From contig JAPLFY010000030.1 in the NCBI GenBank assembly GCA_026390435.1, positions 62,001-126,000 of the forward strand: 64,000 nt of DNA, read 5' to 3'. The position numbers and the translations under genes are program-made. The DNA is from Pseudomonadota bacterium (GTDB taxonomy: Bacteria; Bdellovibrionota_B; Oligoflexia; Oligoflexales; CAIYRB01). This document shows positions 18,306-31,182 of this stretch, one piece after another (within the stretch, counting starts at the first letter, position 1; the number at the start of each line of letters is the position of its first letter). The notes beneath the pieces were generated by a model. It saw nothing but the letters and a program-made list of their open reading frames with translations. It did no database searches and had not been told where the DNA came from.

Positions 18306-18592
18306 GCCAGGGGGTATTATTATCTTTTAATTAAATTCTATTTTTACTTAAACAGTAGTCGTAGTAGTTCCGATATTTAATCTGGGGATAAACATGTAAC
18401 CACATGTACTTATTGAATAATTCGTGTATTTCGCCTGTTCATTGACGGTGGATAAATCAGTGGGCAAAATGGGGAGCAAATTGGGGATAAGTCCGACCCC
18501 TCCAATTATCCACTTTTTACCCACAAGCTATCCCCGCATGTTTTCAATCTGTTCTGAACAACTTACCCCCAGGGTTACCCCCAGGGAGCAAT
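18306..18592. other. oriC: Probable chromosomal replication origin (oriC) between dnaA and dnaN
   Basis: This gap holds a cluster of DnaA-box-like 9-mers related to TTATCCACA: TGGGGATAA (18383-18391 and 18482-18490), GGTGGATAA (18447-18455), TTATCCACT (18506-18514), CTATCCCCG (18528-18536) and two TTACCCCCA units. An A/T-rich stretch without boxes at about 18315-18380 could be the unwinding element. Genes on either side of the dnaA/par region point away from it, as expected near an origin. dnaA-dnaN is a known origin position in many bacteria; function here is inferred. Confidence 0.75.
18563..18586. repeat. Perfect tandem duplication of a 12-mer in oriC
   Basis: The 12-mer TTACCCCCAGGG occurs twice without a spacer, just after the 3' end of dnaA. 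Each copy begins with TTACCCCCA, two mismatches from the DnaA box TTATCCACA, so the repeat could present two weak DnaA sites about one helical turn apart. Confidence 0.8.
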
Positions 18593-20309: not shown

Positions 20310-20567
20310 ATGCCAAATCTTGGTAGAGCATTCAGCTACTTAATCGCGGCCCAGGTTCAGGCCGTCAGCCTGATATTTCTCGCCTATTGGGCCGGCGATT
20401 GGCTCAACAAAAACCACCCAAGCGGTTTCAATTGGTATGTGGTCACCTTCACCGTCGGCGTCTTGGGGGTTGCGCAAACCTTTTACGTAGTGATACGTGC
20501 AGCGATGATCCAGGGCAAGCAGCAGCCCGAAAAGACCGACGACACGGAATCCGGCTCTGACTCATGA
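20310..20567 (+). CDS. AtpI/AtpZ-like small membrane protein
   Basis: An 85-residue protein with two predicted membrane helices (about 10-28 and 40-62) and a charged C-terminal tail. Size, two-helix hairpin topology and first position in an atp operon fit the AtpZ/AtpI (subunit I-related) family, which aids ATP-synthase rotor assembly or Mg2+ uptake in other bacteria. Its TGA overlaps the next ATG (ATGA). The sequence is too short to separate AtpZ from AtpI. Confidence 0.75.
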   Translation: MPNLGRAFSYLIAAQVQAVSLIFLAYWAGDWLNKNHPSGFNWYVVTFTVGVLGVAQTFYVVIRAAMIQGKQQPEKTDDTESGSDS

Positions 20568-20962
20568 ACTCACGTATTTTTATATCGATAGTCTTAGCCA
20601 TGATTTCGCTGGCGACGATCGCTATGTTGCCGCTGCCCAAAAACGCATCATCAGCACTTGTTGCCGGTGTGTGTTTGTTCGCAGGAAACTCGGCGCTTTT
20701 GTTTCTTATAGCGCGTAAGATTTTTAGCACTAATGTCAGTCTTGTAGGTAATCGGCGCAGTGGAATCTTTTTTCTCCTAGCGATTGTGCTGAAAGTATTT
20801 GGTCTCGGTATCGGCATCTATATAGGTCTGGTGGTATGGCGTTTGCCGGTTATATATTTTGTCAGCGGTGCTGTCGTTGGTCTAGTTGGCCTAGTGGTGG
20901 CTGTTTTGATTGGCTCCGCCCAAAGTGAGAAAAAGGTGACAGTAGTGTCGCACGCAGAGTAA
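20564..20962 (+). CDS. ATP synthase subunit I-like membrane protein
   Basis: A 132-residue protein with four hydrophobic segments (about 5-23, 31-49, 67-86, 89-115), matching the four-helix AtpI (UncI) type that precedes atpB in many operons. AtpI helps c-ring assembly but is not part of the mature enzyme. It is translationally coupled to the upstream small protein, and a 133-base gap separates it from atpB. The assignment relies on topology and position, since AtpI sequences are poorly conserved. Confidence 0.7.
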   Translation: MNSRIFISIVLAMISLATIAMLPLPKNASSALVAGVCLFAGNSALLFLIARKIFSTNVSLVGNRRSGIFFLLAIVLKVFGLGIGIYIGLVVWRLPVIYFVSGAVVGLVGLVVAVLIGSAQSEKKVTVVSHAE

Positions 20963-21095
20963 CCCGCGCAGCGGATTGTACCCGCGTGAGAGATGAAACT
21001 TTTTACTACCAAAGGTTCTGGATCTAGGTTAGTAGATCTGTCCGTTTGACGTTAGTGCGACTCTCATCCTGTTCCTCGTGGAGCGCTGAGTAACC

Positions 21096-21887
21096 TTGAA
21101 GAATATAACTTTAAAACGATTGTGTGCTTTCGGTTGGCTCGGAGTAGCGGGGCCCGCTTTGGGCGCTGAAGGTAGTGGTGCAGGCGTTGCGAACTTCATC
21201 AACTACTACGAAATTCTCTTGCACAGCCTGCATATTAATCATGCGTGGGAGCCTACCCTAGGCGGCCTGCTGTGCCTTCTTGTAATCGTGCTCTGCGGAT
21301 TATACTACCGAGCCTCGGTGAGTAAGTCTGGTGACGACGTGGCTCCTTCGGAGAAGTTTTCTCTTCGGTTTTTAATCGAAGAGATGCTCGAGTTCGTAGT
21401 TGGCATAGCGAAAGACAGCACCCACGAACAGTACCGGAACTTTTTCCCGTTTCTTGCGGCCCTGTTTATCTATATCGTCGTGTGCAACCTGTCAGGCTTG
21501 ATTCCAGGTTTTCCGCCGCCTACAGAAACTATGGATAACAATGTTGCGGTTGGTATCTGCACCTTTTTAGTTTACAACTATGCGGGCATTAAAGAACACG
21601 GCGCCGCTTATATTAAACAATTTTTCGGTCCTGTGGTTTTTATTGCTCCATTATTCTTTTGTATCGAATTAGTAAGTCACTTCTCGCGACCGTTGTCACT
21701 TGGTCTTCGTTTGACTGGGAACATCTATGGCGATCATACTTTGCTTGGGGTGTTTACTAGTTTAAGTTACTTGGTGTTCCCAGCTTTATTAATGTTCTTT
21801 GGTTTGATAGTAGCGATTGTTCAAAGCGTCGTGTTTACATTGTTATCTGGAATTTATATTTCAATGGCGATTTCTCACGACCATTGA
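21096..21887 (+). CDS. atpB: ATP synthase Fo subunit a
   Basis: The stator channel subunit that faces the c-ring. The 263-residue protein has several membrane helices and the conserved helix with the essential arginine (SLGLRLTGNIYGDH). The most upstream usable start is a TTG at 21096-21098; no ATG lies near. The N-terminus (KRLCAFGWLGVAGPALGAEG) reads like a cleavable signal peptide, which is uncommon for this subunit outside some deltaproteobacterial-type lineages. A GGAG lies about 12 bases ahead of the TTG. atpE follows after 55 bases. Confidence 0.95.
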   Translation: MKNITLKRLCAFGWLGVAGPALGAEGSGAGVANFINYYEILLHSLHINHAWEPTLGGLLCLLVIVLCGLYYRASVSKSGDDVAPSEKFSLRFLIEEMLEFVVGIAKDSTHEQYRNFFPFLAALFIYIVVCNLSGLIPGFPPPTETMDNNVAVGICTFLVYNYAGIKEHGAAYIKQFFGPVVFIAPLFFCIELVSHFSRPLSLGLRLTGNIYGDHTLLGVFTSLSYLVFPALLMFFGLIVAIVQSVVFTLLSGIYISMAISHDH

Positions 21888-21942
21888 TTGTTCATAAATT
21901 GGTGTGCAGTTCTAGGCACTTTTGAGAGTGGGGTAAGGGTTC

Positions 21943-22260
21943 ATGAAATGTTTCTTCAGTAGAGTAGCGATGGCTTTCGGTGGTTTGTTCTTAAGCTCTT
22001 TGGCGTTTGCCCAGGAAGCGGCGGCCTCGGCATCAGCCGGAAACAGCTGGGTTCCAATTGGTGCGGGTCTGACAATGGCTATCGCATCCTTTGGTGCTGC
22101 AACTGCACAAGGGCGCACCGCAGCTGCCGCTCTTGAAGGCATTGCCCGCAACCCAAATGCGAAAGACGCTTTGTTCCAACCGTTCATTCTCGGTCTGGTG
22201 TTCATGGAATTCCAAGCTTTGCTCGGTTTCGTGATCGCGATCATCTGGACGTTCAAGTGA
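21943..22260 (+). CDS. atpE: ATP synthase Fo subunit c
   Basis: The rotor ring subunit, 105 residues instead of the usual 75-85 because of a signal-peptide-like N-terminus ending AFAQ near residue 23. The two-helix hairpin follows, with the polar loop ARNPNAK (68-74) and the ion-carrying Glu89 in helix 2 (GLVFMEFQALLGF). The helix 1 packing motif, usually GxGxGxG, is here S49-x-G51-x-A53-x-A55-Q-G57. It is the last gene before a strong terminator. Confidence 0.96.
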   Translation: MKCFFSRVAMAFGGLFLSSLAFAQEAAASASAGNSWVPIGAGLTMAIASFGAATAQGRTAAAALEGIARNPNAKDALFQPFILGLVFMEFQALLGFVIAIIWTFK

Positions 22261-22293
22261 GATTTTCTCACTAGTACGCCAGCGACAGACAGA

Positions 22294-22333
22294 AGCGGCA
22301 TCAACTTAAGTGTTTGATGCCGCTGTTTTTTTT
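22294..22333 (+). terminator. Rho-independent terminator of the atpIBE operon
   Basis: A perfect 11-base stem (AGCGGCATCAA pairing with TTGATGCCGCT, 22294-22304 and 22314-22324) with a nine-base loop is followed by G and eight T. It lies 34 bases after atpE and closes the first ATP-synthase operon. Confidence 0.93.
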
Positions 22334-22339
22334 GGATTG

Positions 22340-22355
22340 TGTTCCACGTGGAACA
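22340..22355. promoter_or_regulatory. parS: parS site 1
   Basis: The perfect palindrome TGTTCCACGTGGAACA matches the bacterial parS consensus bound by ParB. It lies seven bases past the T-run of the atpE terminator. Confidence 0.93.
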
Positions 22356-22923
22356 ATCTTTGATTGCGGGTCATTTTTAGAAATTTCTATGATGAGTTAG
22401 CCCAGTAAAATTTTCAAAGTTGCCGTTTTCGCCGCCCCTCTTTTCTCCGGCGGGCCCAACTTCTCCGACTGTGGTGACGTCGAACAAGGCGCCTAGGCCT
22501 TGCCGAGTCTGTGAGCGGGGATATTGAGTTTGAAATGGCCCTGAGCAGGAACGGGGTCCCGTGGGTACCCATTAGCGGGTCGGGTGGCTTCGGGCCGGAC
22601 CAAATTAATGATGCGGCTAGGTGAGCTGTGCGTGCGCATCAGGAAGACGCCAATGGTCCTGATTGGCCGAGGCTCGGGCCCACCGTCTTAGCCCCACAAA
22701 CACGCGCCCGCGTTGATTTGGTGATCCTCAACATGTACCTGTCCGCATGCTTCGGGCTTAGATGGCGGTCCTTTAGGGCAGCCGCGCTGCGGACGTGCCG
22801 AGGCGGCCTAAAGTCTGGCGCGCGAGTTTGCGGGTATCAGGGTTATTTTCGCCGCGTCGACGGCACCGTATTGGGCAAATGGGTCCCACGTGGTGTTGTA
22901 GTTGTAGTTGCGGGAAGCCTCGA

Positions 22924-22939
22924 TGTTCCACGTGGAACA
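22924..22939. promoter_or_regulatory. parS: parS site 2
   Basis: TGTTCCACGTGGAACA, identical to site 1, in the GC-rich part of the spacer 584 bases further on. Confidence 0.93.
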
Positions 22940-23429
22940 ATTCCCAGGCGGCCTTGTTTTCATCAGAGAAACGGGAGGTTAAGAGCGAATCGCTCGAGAC
23001 CGCTACCCCGGTAGCGTGCGGGGAAATGTGTCGTCTGGCCAGTATCCATTCATGCCCGAAAGGGCAGATCTCGGATCTCGGGGGCGGAGCGGGACTTGGG
23101 AGTGTTACAGATAGGCTAGCTTTCATAGCAACGACCCTTGGTAGCTTTTGTCAGTGACCTATTTCGGGTCATGTCGCTTCGCCGCCTCTTTTAGAGCATC
23201 GGCACTACGTACCGTCGTCTTTGACTTATGAAGCACCCGATTTTGGTGTGGCATGGTTGTCTGCCGTCGGCGCGGGGCGGGGCGGCGACCGTGGTGCCTG
23301 AGCCCACTACGAAAAGCGTCGTGACTCAGCGGAAAACCCGGCGAATTTACCTTAAGTCCACGTCGCCCGCACCCCACGCAAAGACGGCAACTCACCGTAA
23401 TTATGGCACTAAGCGGCAATTATTCGGTG

Positions 23430-23445
23430 TGTTCCACGTGGAACA
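23430..23445. promoter_or_regulatory. parS: parS site 3, inside a 24-base perfect palindrome
   Basis: TGTTCCACGTGGAACA again, but here the symmetry extends four bases on each side (GGTG/CACC), giving a perfect 24-base palindrome at 23426-23449. Confidence 0.94.
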
Positions 23446-23575
23446 CACCACCTATTTGGCTAGCCAAAACAGTCTATCCTCGAAAATATCCTAATCACAT
23501 CTGTAAAGTTCGGTAAATCCGCCGTGAATTATGCTGAAAAAGCGTTGGATTTACCTATTCACTTCGAAAAGCGGA

Positions 23576-23699
23576 TTTTTTGCCAAAAAAAGCATTTTTG
23601 GTGTCAAAAAAAGTTTTTTACTGAGAAAAAACGATTTTTTTCAGAAAAAAGAACTTTTTCGGTGACAAAAGAGCCTTTGCTCCAAAAAAATTAAGTTTT
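23576..23699. other. Helically phased A/T-tract element (probable intrinsically curved DNA)
   Basis: Thirteen homopolymer tracts of three to seven A or T occur in 124 bases, alternating T and A. Their centres lie at about 23578, 23588, 23597, 23609, 23616, 23628, 23638, 23647, 23657, 23668, 23677, 23687 and 23697, a mean spacing of about 9.9 bases. Tracts repeated near the helical period are known to bend DNA. The element lies between parS sites 3 and 4, upstream of parA. Confidence 0.75.
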
Positions 23700-23739
23700 C
23701 GTATAAATCCCCGTACTAAATGGATTTTTCATAGCAAAT

Positions 23740-23755
23740 TGTTCCACGTGAAACA
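23740..23755. promoter_or_regulatory. parS: parS site 4
   Basis: TGTTCCACGTGAAACA, one mismatch from perfect symmetry and matching the classical TGTTNCACGTGAAACA consensus. It lies 52 bases, about five helical turns, before site 5. Confidence 0.94.
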
Positions 23756-23762
23756 AAAATAA

Positions 23763-23781
23763 AAACAAAAGAATTTTGTTT
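23763..23781. repeat. Inverted repeat between parS sites 4 and 5
   Basis: AAACAAAA-gaa-TTTTGTTT, a perfect eight-base inverted repeat with a three-base centre, lies midway between the two parA-proximal parS sites. It could be part of the parA promoter region. Confidence 0.6.
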
Positions 23782-23791
23782 ATAGCCGAAA

Positions 23792-23807
23792 TGTTCCACG
23801 TGAAACA
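23792..23807. promoter_or_regulatory. parS: parS site 5, in the parA leader
   Basis: TGTTCCACGTGAAACA, identical to site 4, 103 bases before the parA ATG. ParB spreading from here could repress parAB, as known in other par loci. Confidence 0.94.
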
Positions 23808-23910
23808 ATTTGAGGTGGGGCAAGGCGCGTTAAGCTCTTCTCAAAGGGCAAGCCCATTGCTATAGTCGGCCCCTTGTCCCTCCAATTGTGTTCGCAGCGG
23901 AGACAGTCCA

Positions 23911-24744
23911 ATGGCCCGTGTAATAGCGGTTTCCAACCAAAAGGGAGGCGTGGGAAAAACCACTTCTGCCATAAATATAGCAGCTTGTCTGGCGGCGGCC
24001 GAAAAGCGGGTCCTTGTAATTGACTTGGATCCTCAGGCGAACGCGGGGAGTGGGCTTGGTATATATCGAGGCGACTTCGACACTAGTATGTATGACGTTC
24101 TGGTTGACGAAGTCCCTATCACGACGGCAATACTGCACACGGAACTCAAGTGCCTTGACCTTGCCCCATCCGTTCAGGATTTAGTCGGTGCCGAGGTCGA
24201 GTTGGTGTCGGCTATAGGGCGCGAGGCTCGGCTCAAAGAGGCTCTCGAGCCGGTCCAAAAGCTTTACGACTTTATTATTATCGACTGTCCGCCGGCCCTC
24301 GGAATATTGACAGTAAATGCTCTGACGGCAGCTGACGCGGTGCTGATACCCCTGCAGTGTGAGTACTACGCGATGGAGGGACTGTCTCAGCTCATTAAAA
24401 CCATCTCGTTGATCAAAAAGAAGCTGAATCCAGGGTTAGAGCGGGAAGGTATTTTGCTGACCATGTACGATCGTCGTAACAACTTGTCGCACCAAGTCGA
24501 GCAGGATATCAGAGCTCATTTTGGCGATGAAGTATTTCCGGTCGTGATTCCGCGCAATGTTAAGCTGTCCGAAGCCCCATCCCACGGCAAGCCAGTGATT
24601 CTATACGACATCAACAGCACCGGCGCAGTGGCCTATATGGAGACCGCGCGGCTGCTGATTAGACGCAACCAGGCTAGGATTACGGGGCGTCAGCGGGCAG
24701 AAAAAGGATCGCCGACTAAGCAGAGACCGTCCGACCATCAGTGA
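23911..24744 (+). CDS. parA: Chromosome partition ATPase ParA (Soj)
   Basis: A ParA/MinD-type ATPase that moves ParB-parS complexes over the nucleoid. The 277-residue protein has the deviant Walker A motif KGGVGKTT at residues 11-18, DLDPQANAGSGLG (A'), and IIIDCPPALG (Walker B). The C-terminal tail is basic and polar. It precedes parB by seven bases and follows five parS sites, so this is the chromosomal partition locus. Confidence 0.98.
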   Translation: MARVIAVSNQKGGVGKTTSAINIAACLAAAEKRVLVIDLDPQANAGSGLGIYRGDFDTSMYDVLVDEVPITTAILHTELKCLDLAPSVQDLVGAEVELVSAIGREARLKEALEPVQKLYDFIIIDCPPALGILTVNALTAADAVLIPLQCEYYAMEGLSQLIKTISLIKKKLNPGLEREGILLTMYDRRNNLSHQVEQDIRAHFGDEVFPVVIPRNVKLSEAPSHGKPVILYDINSTGAVAYMETARLLIRRNQARITGRQRAEKGSPTKQRPSDHQ

Positions 24745-24751
24745 GGAAGTG

Positions 24752-25696
24752 ATGACTATACGTGATAAAGCAGCGCCGCCTAGGCGGGGTGCCCTGGGCA
24801 AGGGTATCTCATCACTACTTGGTGATATAGACGGAGAAGGCCAAGAGGGTGAATCTGCGGCCGCTAAGGCGGCTGCCGAGGCCCACGCAAAGCGACGACT
24901 AGAAGCGGAAGTCATCAAGCTTGACGTGAACGACATCGACCCTAATCCGCGTCAACCACGCAAGCTGTTCGATGATAAGGCGCTGAGAGAACTGTCCGAG
25001 AGCCTAAAGATAGACGGCGTCCTTCAGCCTATCGTAGTGACTCAGTCGGATCGATCCGGGCGTTATTACGTGGTCGCGGGTGAGCGGCGCCTCCGCGCCT
25101 CGAAGCTCGCCGGTCTTCCTACGGTCCCGGCGATCGTGCGCGAGGGCGCAGCGAATGACCTTTTACGCCTAGCACTGATCGAAAATATTCAGCGCGCCGA
25201 TCTCAACGTACTAGAAGAGGCCGAAGCCTACGCCGCTCTGATCAAGGATTACGGACTGACGCAAGAACAGTGCGCAGATCGAGTTGGAAAAGAGCGATCC
25301 ACGGTAGCGAACTCACTACGGATGCTTACCTTACCCAAGGAGCTCCAGGACGATATTGTGACCGCCCGGTTAACAATGGGCCATGGGCGCGCGATTCTGT
25401 CGCTGGACGACAAGAAGTTGATGCTCCGTTGTCGCGACATAGTCATAAAAAAGTCGCTCAGCGTGAGGCAAACCGAACAACTTTGCAAAAATATAAAGGC
25501 CCCGGTCAAGAGTGACGGCAAGTCCTCCGCGATCAAGGATGAGGCCGACCTTCAGTACATCACCGAAAGTCTACGCACTTATCTTCACACCAAAGTCAGA
25601 GTCGCCGGCAGCACTAGTAGAGGCAAAATAGAAGTCTCGTATTTCTCGGCGGCAGAGCTCGAGCGACTTTTAAAAGTTATGGGACATCGCTTTTAA
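24752..25696 (+). CDS. parB: Chromosome partition protein ParB (Spo0J)
   Basis: A CTP-dependent DNA clamp that loads at parS and spreads. In 314 residues: the N-terminal ParA-contact motif (RRGALGKGISSLLGD), the ParB/Srx CTP-binding domain with GERRLRASKLAGL and ENIQRADLNVLEEA, a helix-turn-helix (LTQEQCADRVGKERSTVANSLRML) and a C-terminal dimerisation domain. A GTG lies at 24749, but the ATG at 24752 has the better distance to the AGGA that overlaps the parA stop. Confidence 0.98.
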   Translation: MTIRDKAAPPRRGALGKGISSLLGDIDGEGQEGESAAAKAAAEAHAKRRLEAEVIKLDVNDIDPNPRQPRKLFDDKALRELSESLKIDGVLQPIVVTQSDRSGRYYVVAGERRLRASKLAGLPTVPAIVREGAANDLLRLALIENIQRADLNVLEEAEAYAALIKDYGLTQEQCADRVGKERSTVANSLRMLTLPKELQDDIVTARLTMGHGRAILSLDDKKLMLRCRDIVIKKSLSVRQTEQLCKNIKAPVKSDGKSSAIKDEADLQYITESLRTYLHTKVRVAGSTSRGKIEVSYFSAAELERLLKVMGHRF

Positions 25697-25837
25697 ACTC
25701 AGTCGCAACTCAAGCGCCCAAAAATTTAATTATCGAAACAGCGCAAATCGGCTTGTTCGTTTGGCAAAAGTGCGTTAATCAGGGTCGCCCATGCTGTTCG
25801 CCTTATTTTTAGTTTGCATTGCTCGCAGGTAACATCG

Positions 25838-26269
25838 ATGGCTACGCTAAATCTTATACCTAACCCCATGGTCCTCGGCGCTCAGATCGGCGTGTTCTAT
25901 TTAAACTTCATCGCCGTCAAGAAATTATTCGTCCAACCATATCTTTCCGTGCGCGATCGCCGCCAGGCACTCACCTTCGGCAGCCAGGACGAGGCGACGA
26001 AGGCCTTGGCCCGCTGTGATCGCATCAGTAAGGACATCGAGTCCAGATATATTGCTTCGGCTACGGAGGCTAAGGCTGATCGCGAACAATTGCGCGAACA
26101 AGCTAAAATTACCCGGCAAACACTGCTTAGCGCCGCGGAAAAGGTCGCTAAGGCCGAGATAGCAAATGTGGAAAAGCAGATTCGCGAAGATCTGGCTACG
26201 GAGAAAGAAAAAATACCAGGCGTAATCAAGTCTTTGTCGGACGAAGTTTACAAGCTCGCCCTGATCTGA
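25838..26269 (+). CDS. ATP synthase Fo subunit b' (first of two b-type subunits)
   Basis: A 143-residue peripheral-stalk subunit: one N-terminal hydrophobic helix (VLGAQIGVFYLNFIAV) followed by a long charged coiled coil. Two different b-type genes in tandem mean that the stalk is probably a b/b' heterodimer, as in many deltaproteobacterial-type operons. The ATG at 25838 has AGGTAA ahead of it and is preferred to the TTG at 25814. A 141-base gap separates it from parB. Confidence 0.88.
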   Translation: MATLNLIPNPMVLGAQIGVFYLNFIAVKKLFVQPYLSVRDRRQALTFGSQDEATKALARCDRISKDIESRYIASATEAKADREQLREQAKITRQTLLSAAEKVAKAEIANVEKQIREDLATEKEKIPGVIKSLSDEVYKLALI

Positions 26270-26285
26270 TCGGAGATGTCGGGAT

Positions 26286-26789
26286 ATGGAAGATCATTTT
26301 GATGTGTTGATGGGAGTTATTCTTCCATACGCGAACTTCGCAATCTTTTTGGGATTGGCGATTTATTTTTTCCGCAAGCCAGCCGCAGCTGCAGCGAAAA
26401 AGCGCCGCGAGCAATACAGTAAGCTTGTCGCCGAAGCTACGGCTGCTCGAGATGCCGCTGTCTCTAAGCTTAACGAATTAAAAAATCGGGAAGAGTCGCT
26501 TGCCGATGAATTAGCGAGTATAAAGGCAGACTCGCGCGAGAGCGCAGAGCAAGAGGCTTCCAAAATCGTTGCGGATGCAGAGCGGCTCGCCACCCACCTG
26601 CGGGCCGAGGCGGGGCGGATAGCAGCGGCGGAAGTGGCAAAGGCCCGCGCCGAACTGCGCAAGGAGATTGTCGACACGGTCACCGCCAGTGTGAAAGAAA
26701 AATTAGTGCGCGAATTAAGCGTAGATACGCAGTTGGTTTTGGCTCGCAAAAAGATAGATGAATTGAAGCACGTCGGCGCGGATAGCTGA
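26286..26789 (+). CDS. atpF: ATP synthase Fo subunit b
   Basis: A 167-residue b subunit with an N-terminal membrane helix (YANFAIFLGLAIYFFRKPAAAA) and a long alanine- and glutamate-rich coiled coil that reaches F1. The FFRKP junction after the helix is typical. It lies 16 bases after the b' gene and seven bases before atpH. Confidence 0.95.
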   Translation: MEDHFDVLMGVILPYANFAIFLGLAIYFFRKPAAAAAKKRREQYSKLVAEATAARDAAVSKLNELKNREESLADELASIKADSRESAEQEASKIVADAERLATHLRAEAGRIAAAEVAKARAELRKEIVDTVTASVKEKLVRELSVDTQLVLARKKIDELKHVGADS

Positions 26790-26796
26790 GGTTTAC

Positions 26797-27342
26797 ATGT
26801 CACGGATTGCTAAACGTTATGCACAGGCCCTGTTGAAGTTAACAGCAGGGGACCTTGGTAAAGCAAAAAACTACCGCGATAGTTTGAATGAATTGAAGGC
26901 CCTTTTTAGCCTTAACGAGGCGGCCAAGGTTCTTTGCAGCCCCGTTATGCCGAACGACCTAAAAAAGAGCCTGCTTTCATACGGGCTGAAGGTGGCTAAT
27001 GCTGGTGACGAGCTTAGTCGGATGGTCAACACCGTGGTCGATGCTGGGCGTGTCAGTTTTTTGCCGCAGGTTATCGACGTATTCGCCAAGCTGATCGATG
27101 AGGCGGAGGGAAAAGTGCATGCGGAAGTTACCTCCGCTGTTTCATTACCGCCTGAAGATACTAAACAGATTGCAACCGCGCTAAGTCACTTACTCGGCAA
27201 AAAAGCAGAGATTACGCAGCTAGTTGATAGCTCGCTAGTCGGGGGATTTGTCGTCAAAGTCGGTGATTATGTGGTCGACCTAAGCTTGAAAACCAAGCTC
27301 GAAGGTCTGGCCAACGCCGCGGTCCAAGATACTTTTCGTTAA
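26797..27342 (+). CDS. atpH: ATP synthase F1 subunit delta
   Basis: A 181-residue delta subunit, connecting the b/b' stalk to the top of F1. It has the family N-terminus (IAKRYAQALLKL) and the C-terminal signature VDSSLVGGFVVKVGDYVVDLSLKTKLEGL. It lies 12 bases before atpA. Confidence 0.97.
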   Translation: MSRIAKRYAQALLKLTAGDLGKAKNYRDSLNELKALFSLNEAAKVLCSPVMPNDLKKSLLSYGLKVANAGDELSRMVNTVVDAGRVSFLPQVIDVFAKLIDEAEGKVHAEVTSAVSLPPEDTKQIATALSHLLGKKAEITQLVDSSLVGGFVVKVGDYVVDLSLKTKLEGLANAAVQDTFR

Positions 27343-27354
27343 GGGAAGGCCGTC

Positions 27355-28866
27355 ATGAGCACAGAGAAGATCCGAGTAGAAGAAGTCAGCCGAATCATCA
27401 GTGAGCGAATCAAGAACTACGGGCAAACCGCAGAGCTTCAGGAAACAGGCACCGTCCTCGCTGTCGGTGACGGCATTGCGCGCGCCTATGGTCTTGGGGG
27501 CGTTATGGCAGGCGAGCTGGTTCAGTTTGAAAACGGAGCCCGCGGCGTAGTTTTGAACCTCGAAGAAGACAATGTCGGCATCGCCATTTTTGGAAACGTA
27601 AAAGGGATCGCAGAGGGCCAAGTCGTTAAGCGGCTCAAAGAGATCAATTCGGTTCCAATTGGCGACGCGCTTTTGGGTCGCGTGGTAAATGCACTGGGCG
27701 AGCCCATCGACGGCCAAGGCCCAGTTAACACAACCGAGACAGGTCTTGTTGAGGTCAAGGCCCCCGGAATCATCGACCGCAAGTCGGTGCACGAGCCTCT
27801 GCAAACCGGTATTAAAGCTATTGATGCCATGACCCCAATCGGTCGTGGTCAACGTGAATTGATCATCGGCGACCGCCAAACCGGCAAAACTACGATCTGT
27901 GTTGATACGATCATTAATCAAAAGGGCAAAGACGTAATCTGTATTTACGTTGCGATCGGCCAAAAGGCCTCGACCGTCGCCCAGGTCGTCGAGAAGCTGA
28001 AGCGTTTTGGCGCCATGGATTACACAATCGTGGTAGCTGCTACTGCGATTGACCCGGCGCCGATGCAGTTCGTCGCGCCATATTCGGGCTGCCGAATGGC
28101 CGAGTACTTCCTGCATAAAGGCAAGCATGCCGTCATTTTCTACGATGACCTTTCGAAGCAGGCAGTGGCCTATCGTGAATTGTCGTTGTTGCTCCGTCGT
28201 CCCCCCGGTCGGGAAGCGTACCCAGGCGATGTGTTTTACGTGCATAGTCGCTTGCTCGAGCGTGCTTGCAAGTTAAATGACAAGCTAGGCGCAGGTTCCA
28301 TCACGGCATTCCCGGTGGTAGAAACACAAGCGGGCGATATCTCCGCCTATATTCCGACGAACGTGATTTCCATCACCGACGGCCAGATCTTTCTGGAAAG
28401 TGATCTCTTCTTCTCGGGTATTCGTCCAGCGATCAACGCCGGCCTTTCCGTGTCGCGGGTAGGCGGAGCGGCGCAGGTCCCCGGCATGAAGAAGGTCGCC
28501 GGATCGTTGCGCCTCGAGTTGGCTCAATTTCGTGAATTAGCCGCGTTTTCTCAATTTGGTTCCGACCTTGACCAGTCCACCCAAAAGACTCTGAGGCGCG
28601 GTGAGCGTCTCGTGGAGATCCTCAAGCAGGGTCAATACGTGCCAATGCAAATTGGTCTTCAGATTGCCTCAATCTTTGCGGTGACCAAGGGCTACTTGGA
28701 TAAGCGTGATGTTTCGCGGGTAGGGGAGTGGGAAAAAGGCATGCACGAATATCTGCTTGCACGCTACCCGCAAGTAGCTGAGAAGCTCGAGAAGCGCAGC
28801 AAACTGGAAGATGTCCAAGGCGACTTGGTTAAGGCCATTGAAGAGTTCGACAAGGGATTCAAGTAA
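27355..28866 (+). CDS. atpA: ATP synthase F1 subunit alpha
   Basis: The non-catalytic nucleotide-binding subunit, 503 residues as usual. The P-loop GDRQTGKTT, the N-terminal ISERIKNY and the arginine-finger region [10 protein letters not shown] are present. The last base of its TAA is the first base of the atpG ATG (TAATG), so the two are probably coupled. Confidence 0.99.
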
Positions 28867-29747
28867 TGCCAAGTTTAAAGGATATTCGCCGCCGCATAGG
28901 CAGTGTGAAAAACACGCAGAAAATTACGCGCGCAATGAAGTTAGTTGCCGCGGCGAAATTCGCGCGTGCTAACGCAGCTGTCGTGGCCGCCAGGCCCTAT
29001 GGCACAGCCTTTCAGTCAATGGTTGAGCGCCTGGTTGAGGCAGCGGGTGGTAGTGTACAGTCACCACTTCTAAACGAACGCGAAGAGCATAAGATTTTGC
29101 TAGTGCTTCTTTCGACGGATCGGGGCTTTTGCGGTGGCTTGAATTCGAATTTGTTCAGGCAGTCCTTGCAGTTTATCAATGCAAAAAGGCGTGACGGTGT
29201 TCAAGTAGACCTGATGCCTTGGGGACGCAGAGCTCGTCAATTTAGCGCAAAGTTGAGCTACGAAGTCCAAGACCCGCGGGAAAAAGTGCTAGATAAACCG
29301 AGCTATGGTCTCGCCAAGGAATTAGCAGCGGACTTGGTTCATCGCTTTGAACACGAGGGTTACGACCGGATTTATCTGGGTTTTGTCGAGTTTAAGTCGG
29401 CAATGTCGCAGGTTCCAAAATTTGCCCAGGTGTTGCCGGTAGGAAAGAGCCACTCCGGCAGGTCTCACAAAGAGCCGGAAGCTGGGTTTGGGCCGGATAT
29501 TTTGGTAGAGCCGTCGATTCAGGAAGTACTCGAACAGGTGTTAAAGAGAGAGGTGGCTGGATTGATCTTCCGCGCCATGTTGGAGGGCGCAGCGTCCGAA
29601 CACGGGGCTAGAATGACCGCCATGGATTCGGCAACAAACAATGCCAACGAAGTGCTGCGTCGGATGAAGATTCAATACAACCGCGCCCGGCAAGCAGCGA
29701 TTACTAAAGAACTTATTGAAATCACCAGCGGCGCCCAGGCCCTGTGA
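28866..29747 (+). CDS. atpG: ATP synthase F1 subunit gamma
   Basis: The central rotor shaft, 293 residues. The N-terminal helix (IRRRIGSVKNTQKITRAMKLVAAAK) and the C-terminal helix (MDSATNNANEVLRRMKIQYNRARQAAITKELIEI) that form the coiled coil are both clear, as is the STDRGFCGGLN segment. It overlaps atpA by one base and lies 22 bases before atpD. Confidence 0.99.
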   Translation: MPSLKDIRRRIGSVKNTQKITRAMKLVAAAKFARANAAVVAARPYGTAFQSMVERLVEAAGGSVQSPLLNEREEHKILLVLLSTDRGFCGGLNSNLFRQSLQFINAKRRDGVQVDLMPWGRRARQFSAKLSYEVQDPREKVLDKPSYGLAKELAADLVHRFEHEGYDRIYLGFVEFKSAMSQVPKFAQVLPVGKSHSGRSHKEPEAGFGPDILVEPSIQEVLEQVLKREVAGLIFRAMLEGAASEHGARMTAMDSATNNANEVLRRMKIQYNRARQAAITKELIEITSGAQAL

Positions 29748-29751
29748 GTGA

Positions 29752-31182
<1,431 letters not shown>

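Follow-up and report, generated by a model that had tools for sequence, protein, structure and literature searches.

In the usual description, a chromosomal parS locus consists of a few 16-bp sites and everything else is left to ParB. The centromere parC of plasmid R1 is a bent region built of repeats, the repeats being the binding sites of ParR. The locus described here resembles parC in having a curved centromere region made of repeats, but its parS sites are classical and the curved array is separate from them. The par promoter of plasmid F is rich in A-tracts and bent, and it serves as an operator to which a type Ia ParA attaches through its DNA-binding domain (PMC8465637). A-tracts and bending at a par locus are common to both cases; however, the present array is not a promoter operator by its position, and the neighboring ParA (a chromosomal ParA of 277 residues) starts at the Walker motif, so there is no room for a type Ia DNA-binding domain. 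Curvature that positions plectonemes is known upstream of prokaryotic promoters, where it is frequent ~100 nt upstream of start sites (PMC6301789). Here the likeness is in the intrinsic curvature over ~70 bp as the functional quantity, whereas the array is located at a parS cluster, its tracts are phased far more strongly and its distance from the promoter is not constant. By analogy, the nearest concept may be CDEII of the budding-yeast point centromere, which keeps its length and composition while its primary sequence evolves fast, and in which A/T runs are functionally important (PMC3155921). Like the array, CDEII is a segment rich in A/T runs flanked by two short conserved protein sites. 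In contrast to the array, which is near-perfectly phased and often a satellite, it is eukaryotic, wraps a CENP-A nucleosome, contains >90% A+T and does not have helical phasing as its stated constraint. A search of the open-access literature revealed no report of a phased A-tract array (curved DNA) at chromosomal parS, in line with the original prediction that no standard chromosomal par feature of this kind is known. Curved DNA as such is a known kind of element; the novel part is its reading as a bacterial centromeric satellite.

The window analysed is a stretch of 64,000 nucleotides, the features of which are collected in Table 1. The presence of parA and parB together with parS (TGTTNCACGTGNAACA) near oriC is characteristic of a chromosomal ParABS system, and SMC is also encoded by the genome. 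The gap between atpE and parA is 1.65 kb long and harbors all five parS-like sites. The array occupies the place that had been claimed for it, between sites 3 and 4 and upstream of parA. As the parS sites cover nearly the whole intergenic region, this placement is not independent of the intergenic position itself. A stretch similar to the probable parA promoter is visible by eye in three related genomes (G001, G003 and G004, see below). Pfam confirms the identity of the ATP synthase subunits a, c and b and gives no match for the short protein at 25814. The parAB genes and the parS cluster are inserted in the ATP synthase operon, between atpE and atpF-type genes, and the divergent dnaA-dnaN-gyrB-gyrA genes adjoin this region (20310-31182 of the window). 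The adjacency of atpE and parA is also observed in genomes of other families (G013, G018, G020 and G021). A function of the array as oriC or DUE was rejected, since the DnaA boxes are clustered 5 kb away, between dnaA and dnaN.

Table 1. Features of the partition locus and its surroundings (positions in the window)
Feature	Position	Strand	Evidence or remark
DnaA-box cluster between dnaA and dnaN, probable oriC	18383..18525		cumulative GC skew minimum at 16-20 kb
atpE, left border of the parS-bearing intergenic region	21943..22260	+	Pfam ATP-synt_C
parS-like site 1 (TGTTCCACGTGGAACA)	22340..22355		
parS-like site 2	22924..22939		
parS-like site 3, left of the array	23430..23445		
Array of helically phased A/T tracts (14 including the first A4), predicted intrinsically curved DNA	23567..23699		phasing, curvature models, phasing conserved in relatives
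parS-like site 4, right of the array	23740..23755		
parS-like site 5	23792..23807		
Probable parA promoter, TTCTCA-17-TATAGT	23838..23866	+	
parA	23911..24744	+	Pfam AAA_31, 231 bits
parB	24749..25696	+	Pfam ParB_N and HTH_ParB

Thirteen A/T tracts phased at about 9.9 bases and alternating between T and A had been proposed, and both properties are confirmed. The region 23576-23699 contains 13 runs of A or T, each 3-7 long, in strict T,A,T,A order, with a mean spacing of tract centres of 9.93 bp and a residual sd of 0.70 bp. Thus runs of at least 4 (one of the 13 is just 3 long) recur at the helical period over several turns, and a 14th run (A4 at 23567-23570) prolongs the phased series. The phase score, a length-weighted measure of helical phasing, is 63.2 for the array and 19.6 at the second-best place of the window; when all 64 kb were resampled 200 times by a Markov model, 29.4 was never exceeded. 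The observed coherence was matched in 2 of 20,000 permutations of the order of the array's own tracts and linkers, as well as in 3 of 3000 base resamplings of the element alone. The helical repeat of B-DNA is 10.5 bp, and the phase sum of the array drops to about one third at exactly this value. Since the period of 9.9-10.0 bp is shorter than the average twist, the predicted path is bent and gently superhelical rather than a flat arc; the handedness of this path is not relied upon.

The shape was calculated by a dinucleotide wedge model (with parameters from general knowledge) and by a simple model in which bending occurs at A-tracts only. The predicted bend over 73 bp is 136 degrees by the wedge model (rank 2 in 64 kb) and 87 degrees by the A-tract model (rank 1). 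The end-to-end distance over 125 bp amounts to 0.51 and 0.76 of the contour, respectively, which is below all random-spacing controls for the array in both models. The proposed intrinsic curvature is therefore supported by two models that put the array first or second in 64 kb, both being approximate and the wedge model giving several other comparable bends in the window. The saving at a plectoneme tip from such a bend is estimated as ~10-14 kBT by the bending-energy formula described in PMC6301789.

The genus set consisted of the window genome (G000) and five other genomes (G001-G005). A phased A-tract array is found in the parS-bearing atpE-parA gap of all six, with a sequence that varies by lineage. 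In most relatives the array is a satellite with a unit of 10 or 20 bp, and its length ranges from ~125 to ~265 bp; the period and the tracts are kept, while the sequence is not. The irregular alternating T/A type is represented by G000 and G004, the ParA proteins of which are 98% identical. Their arrays can be aligned over 150 bp with zero indels and 118 identical bases, and the phase score of the G004 array is 66. The differences affect 7 of the 74 positions inside the G000 tracts versus 25 of the 76 other positions (Fisher p 0.0006). If equally many substitutions are placed at random, the score falls to 29 +/- 7; the G004 value was reached in none of 5000 simulations. The upstream intergenic flank of the same two genomes is merely 54-74% identical and gapped.

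The other lineages are built differently. The G001 array, which lies between two parS sites, is a satellite of 12.6 copies (99%) of a 20-bp unit, in which T5 and A6 alternate every 10 bp. The satellite unit of G002 and G005 is likewise 20 bp long and contains A8. In G002 its linker, GCTAATTAGC, forms a perfect palindrome of 10 bp (L140 7130-7257); in the sister genome G005 the same linker is degenerate, GCTAATCGGC. The parA contig of G003 stops 250 bp upstream of parA, and its atpE contig, on which parS is present, has two copies of a 20-bp T5/A4 unit at its end; judging from these ends, the G003 assembly probably breaks inside the array that was expected there. Between the three lineages parA is only 33-42% identical at third positions (42% for G001 versus G003), i.e. 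saturated, and the period of the array is nonetheless the same. That tract spacing is kept while sequence varies thus holds for every one of the six genus members, and also for G021, which belongs to another family. Arrays of the same spacing but differing sequence suggest that the bend itself is what matters.

An unbiased search for five A4 runs at exactly 20 bp was performed in 58 genomes of the class. All matches in G000, G001, G002, G004 and G005 (~22 Mb) are at par and none elsewhere. With the second pattern (A5, T5, A5 at half-period distance) runs of matches were obtained at par only, in G000, G001 and G004, the matches elsewhere being isolated and single. When the five A4 runs were set out of phase, at 15 bp, as a control, zero matches were obtained in the genus. 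In G021, which belongs to another family, the 20-bp pattern matches at the ends of two contigs, one of which runs to parS, parS and parA and the other to parS, atpE, atpB, atpI and dnaA. Most simply, a single 10-bp A4 satellite at the syntenic place (dnaA-atpI-atpB-atpE-parS-array-parS-parA) was left unassembled, and these ends are its left and right parts. The units of the G001 array (L139 2769-3019) and of the G021 array (L259 1-136, L262 1-100) have TTGCTG(G/A)AAA in common, which could be due to chance or to a common sequence-reading protein.

The phase score is above all 400 third-order Markov resamples in G000, G001, G002, G004, G005, G015 and G021, and has p 0.0025 to 0.005 against this null in G013, G020 and G023. 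The weaker peaks of G013, G015, G020 and G023 (p at most 0.005) are not tandem and are not built upon. The remaining tested genomes showed nothing significant against the same null once their number was allowed for, and the best phase scores of background samples (up to 40 kb per genome) were ~31 or lower. The genus and G021 therefore have the strong element with certainty, four more genomes may have it, and others do not (e.g. families f10, f11 and f13). Since a strong element is missing from the majority of the other families of the class, ParABS in general does not depend on it. Two further arrays (G019:C243 and G044:C403), together with matches in G051, G053, G054 and G057, are not at par, which means that outside the genus A-tract satellites occur at other places too. 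The first two are 10-bp A4 satellites, located beside a chemotaxis-receptor-like gene (G019:C243 3127-3245) and at the start of a PP2C-like phosphatase gene (G044:C403 1394-1547). The arrangement of parS-like sites also varies: two genomes of family f10 (G029, L159; G030, L160) have an unusually dense array of 8-12 near-tandem sites with ~49-bp or 39-bp spacing upstream of parA, and in G023 (L154) such sites are found at +818 and +1228 from the parA start, inside or just after parA and in parB.

Sequence, strand of the A-runs, unit and length of the arrays all vary while the helical period stays, so that their common feature is shape. The position of the array relative to parS varies from ~30 to >600 bp; it nevertheless tracks the parS region and has no fixed distance from the parA promoter, which makes the partition locus its more likely client. 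The link to the partition locus contained in the original prediction is therefore supported (all six genomes of the genus, and G021), while the choice it offered between the partition complex, SMC loading and parA transcription is not settled by sequence. The computations show the phasing, the predicted curvature, the exclusive occurrence at par within the genus and the lineage-specific sequences; an action by DNA shape is what we infer. Our best reading is that the array is a fast-evolving curvature satellite of the chromosomal partition locus. With about even confidence, we consider it to be an intrinsically curved element of the lineage's parS-cluster centromere, in which selection would act on helical phasing and not on sequence. 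A stiff bent segment would lower the cost of a tight DNA turn, and a plectoneme tip or a wrapped loop may settle at the array. A tight turn fixed beside parS could bring the parS sites flanking the array near each other, and ParB clamps might condense the region more easily when the parS clusters are juxtaposed. The array may also provide a bent DNA substrate for SMC loading near the origin.

The chief rival is a shape-reading nucleoid protein. The phased tracts would then be a docking array for an H-NS-, MucR- or HU-like reader of narrow minor grooves or curved DNA, and the bound filament would block, or insulate against, the spreading of ParB or transcription coming from the atp operon. Such proteins would equally select for phasing and not for sequence, the 10-bp period puts all tracts on one face of the helix, and some linkers look motif-like (the palindrome in G002, the decamer common to G001 and G021). 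However, there is no linker motif common to all lineages, and the palindrome is degenerate in the sister genome; we regard this explanation as unlikely. Promoter effects, neutral satellite turnover and an RNA function are all less likely than it.

Ordinary promoter curvature, with the array tuning the transcription of parAB as bent DNA ahead of the parA promoter, seems rather improbable. The curvature commonly seen ~100 nt upstream of prokaryotic start sites (PMC6301789) and the probable promoter downstream of the array are in accordance with it, as is the modest A-tract phasing directly upstream of parA in other bacteria. Our survey of 80 ParA loci across bacteria revealed nothing comparable at a parS cluster. 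Some Bacillaceae and Bacteroidales have tracts that are moderately phased upstream of parA, which is probably ordinary promoter curvature. In several of these (L072, L074, L104, L105 and others) the best phased A-tracts of the 12-kb locus are at approximately -250 to -50 of parA. But such promoter-linked curvature is far weaker than that of the array. Moreover, the array starts at -335 (G000), -676 (G001), -1034 (G002), approximately -945 to -980 (G005) and beyond -1600 (G021) relative to the parA start, and not at a fixed ~50-150 bp upstream of transcription start across relatives. This inconstant distance speaks against a simple parA promoter element.

A neutral minisatellite or homopolymer-rich patch arising by slippage was already disfavoured and is very improbable. 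It is true that the copies in relatives are tandem repeats and that tandem repeats turn over quickly, but G000 and G004, which differ by 32 substitutions in 150 bp, both keep the phasing and show neither tandem identity nor indels. Furthermore, the independent units all have helical periods (10 or 20 bp), and in the genus arrays occur at par only, 15-bp A4 arrays being absent. That the alternating T and A runs encode an RNA hairpin, a terminator or a small RNA is scarcely credible, for although the window array folds as RNA better than its shuffles (z -3.3), nothing of the kind is seen for the 10-bp array of G021, which is A-only (z 0.02), Rfam gives only sub-threshold A/U-rich matches far under gathering scores, no fold is common to the homologous loci and the predicted stem is a by-product of the T/A alternation.

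If the array is indeed a curvature element of the partition locus, some bacterial chromosomes may possess a centromeric satellite, that is, fast-evolving tandem DNA beside parS which is selected for helical phase alone and shapes the partition complex, comparable by analogy with the sequence-free A/T-rich parts of eukaryotic centromeres. This wider proposal is made tentatively, at slightly less than even confidence. The units found here, at least four of them unrelated or diverged, are a natural set of phase-preserving variants, and a guiding role of curvature in ParB condensation, in the placement of supercoils or in SMC loading would become open to testing. The chromosomal centromere would then have a second, sequence-free DNA component with conserved helical phasing, and DNA shape would be part of the bacterial centromere.
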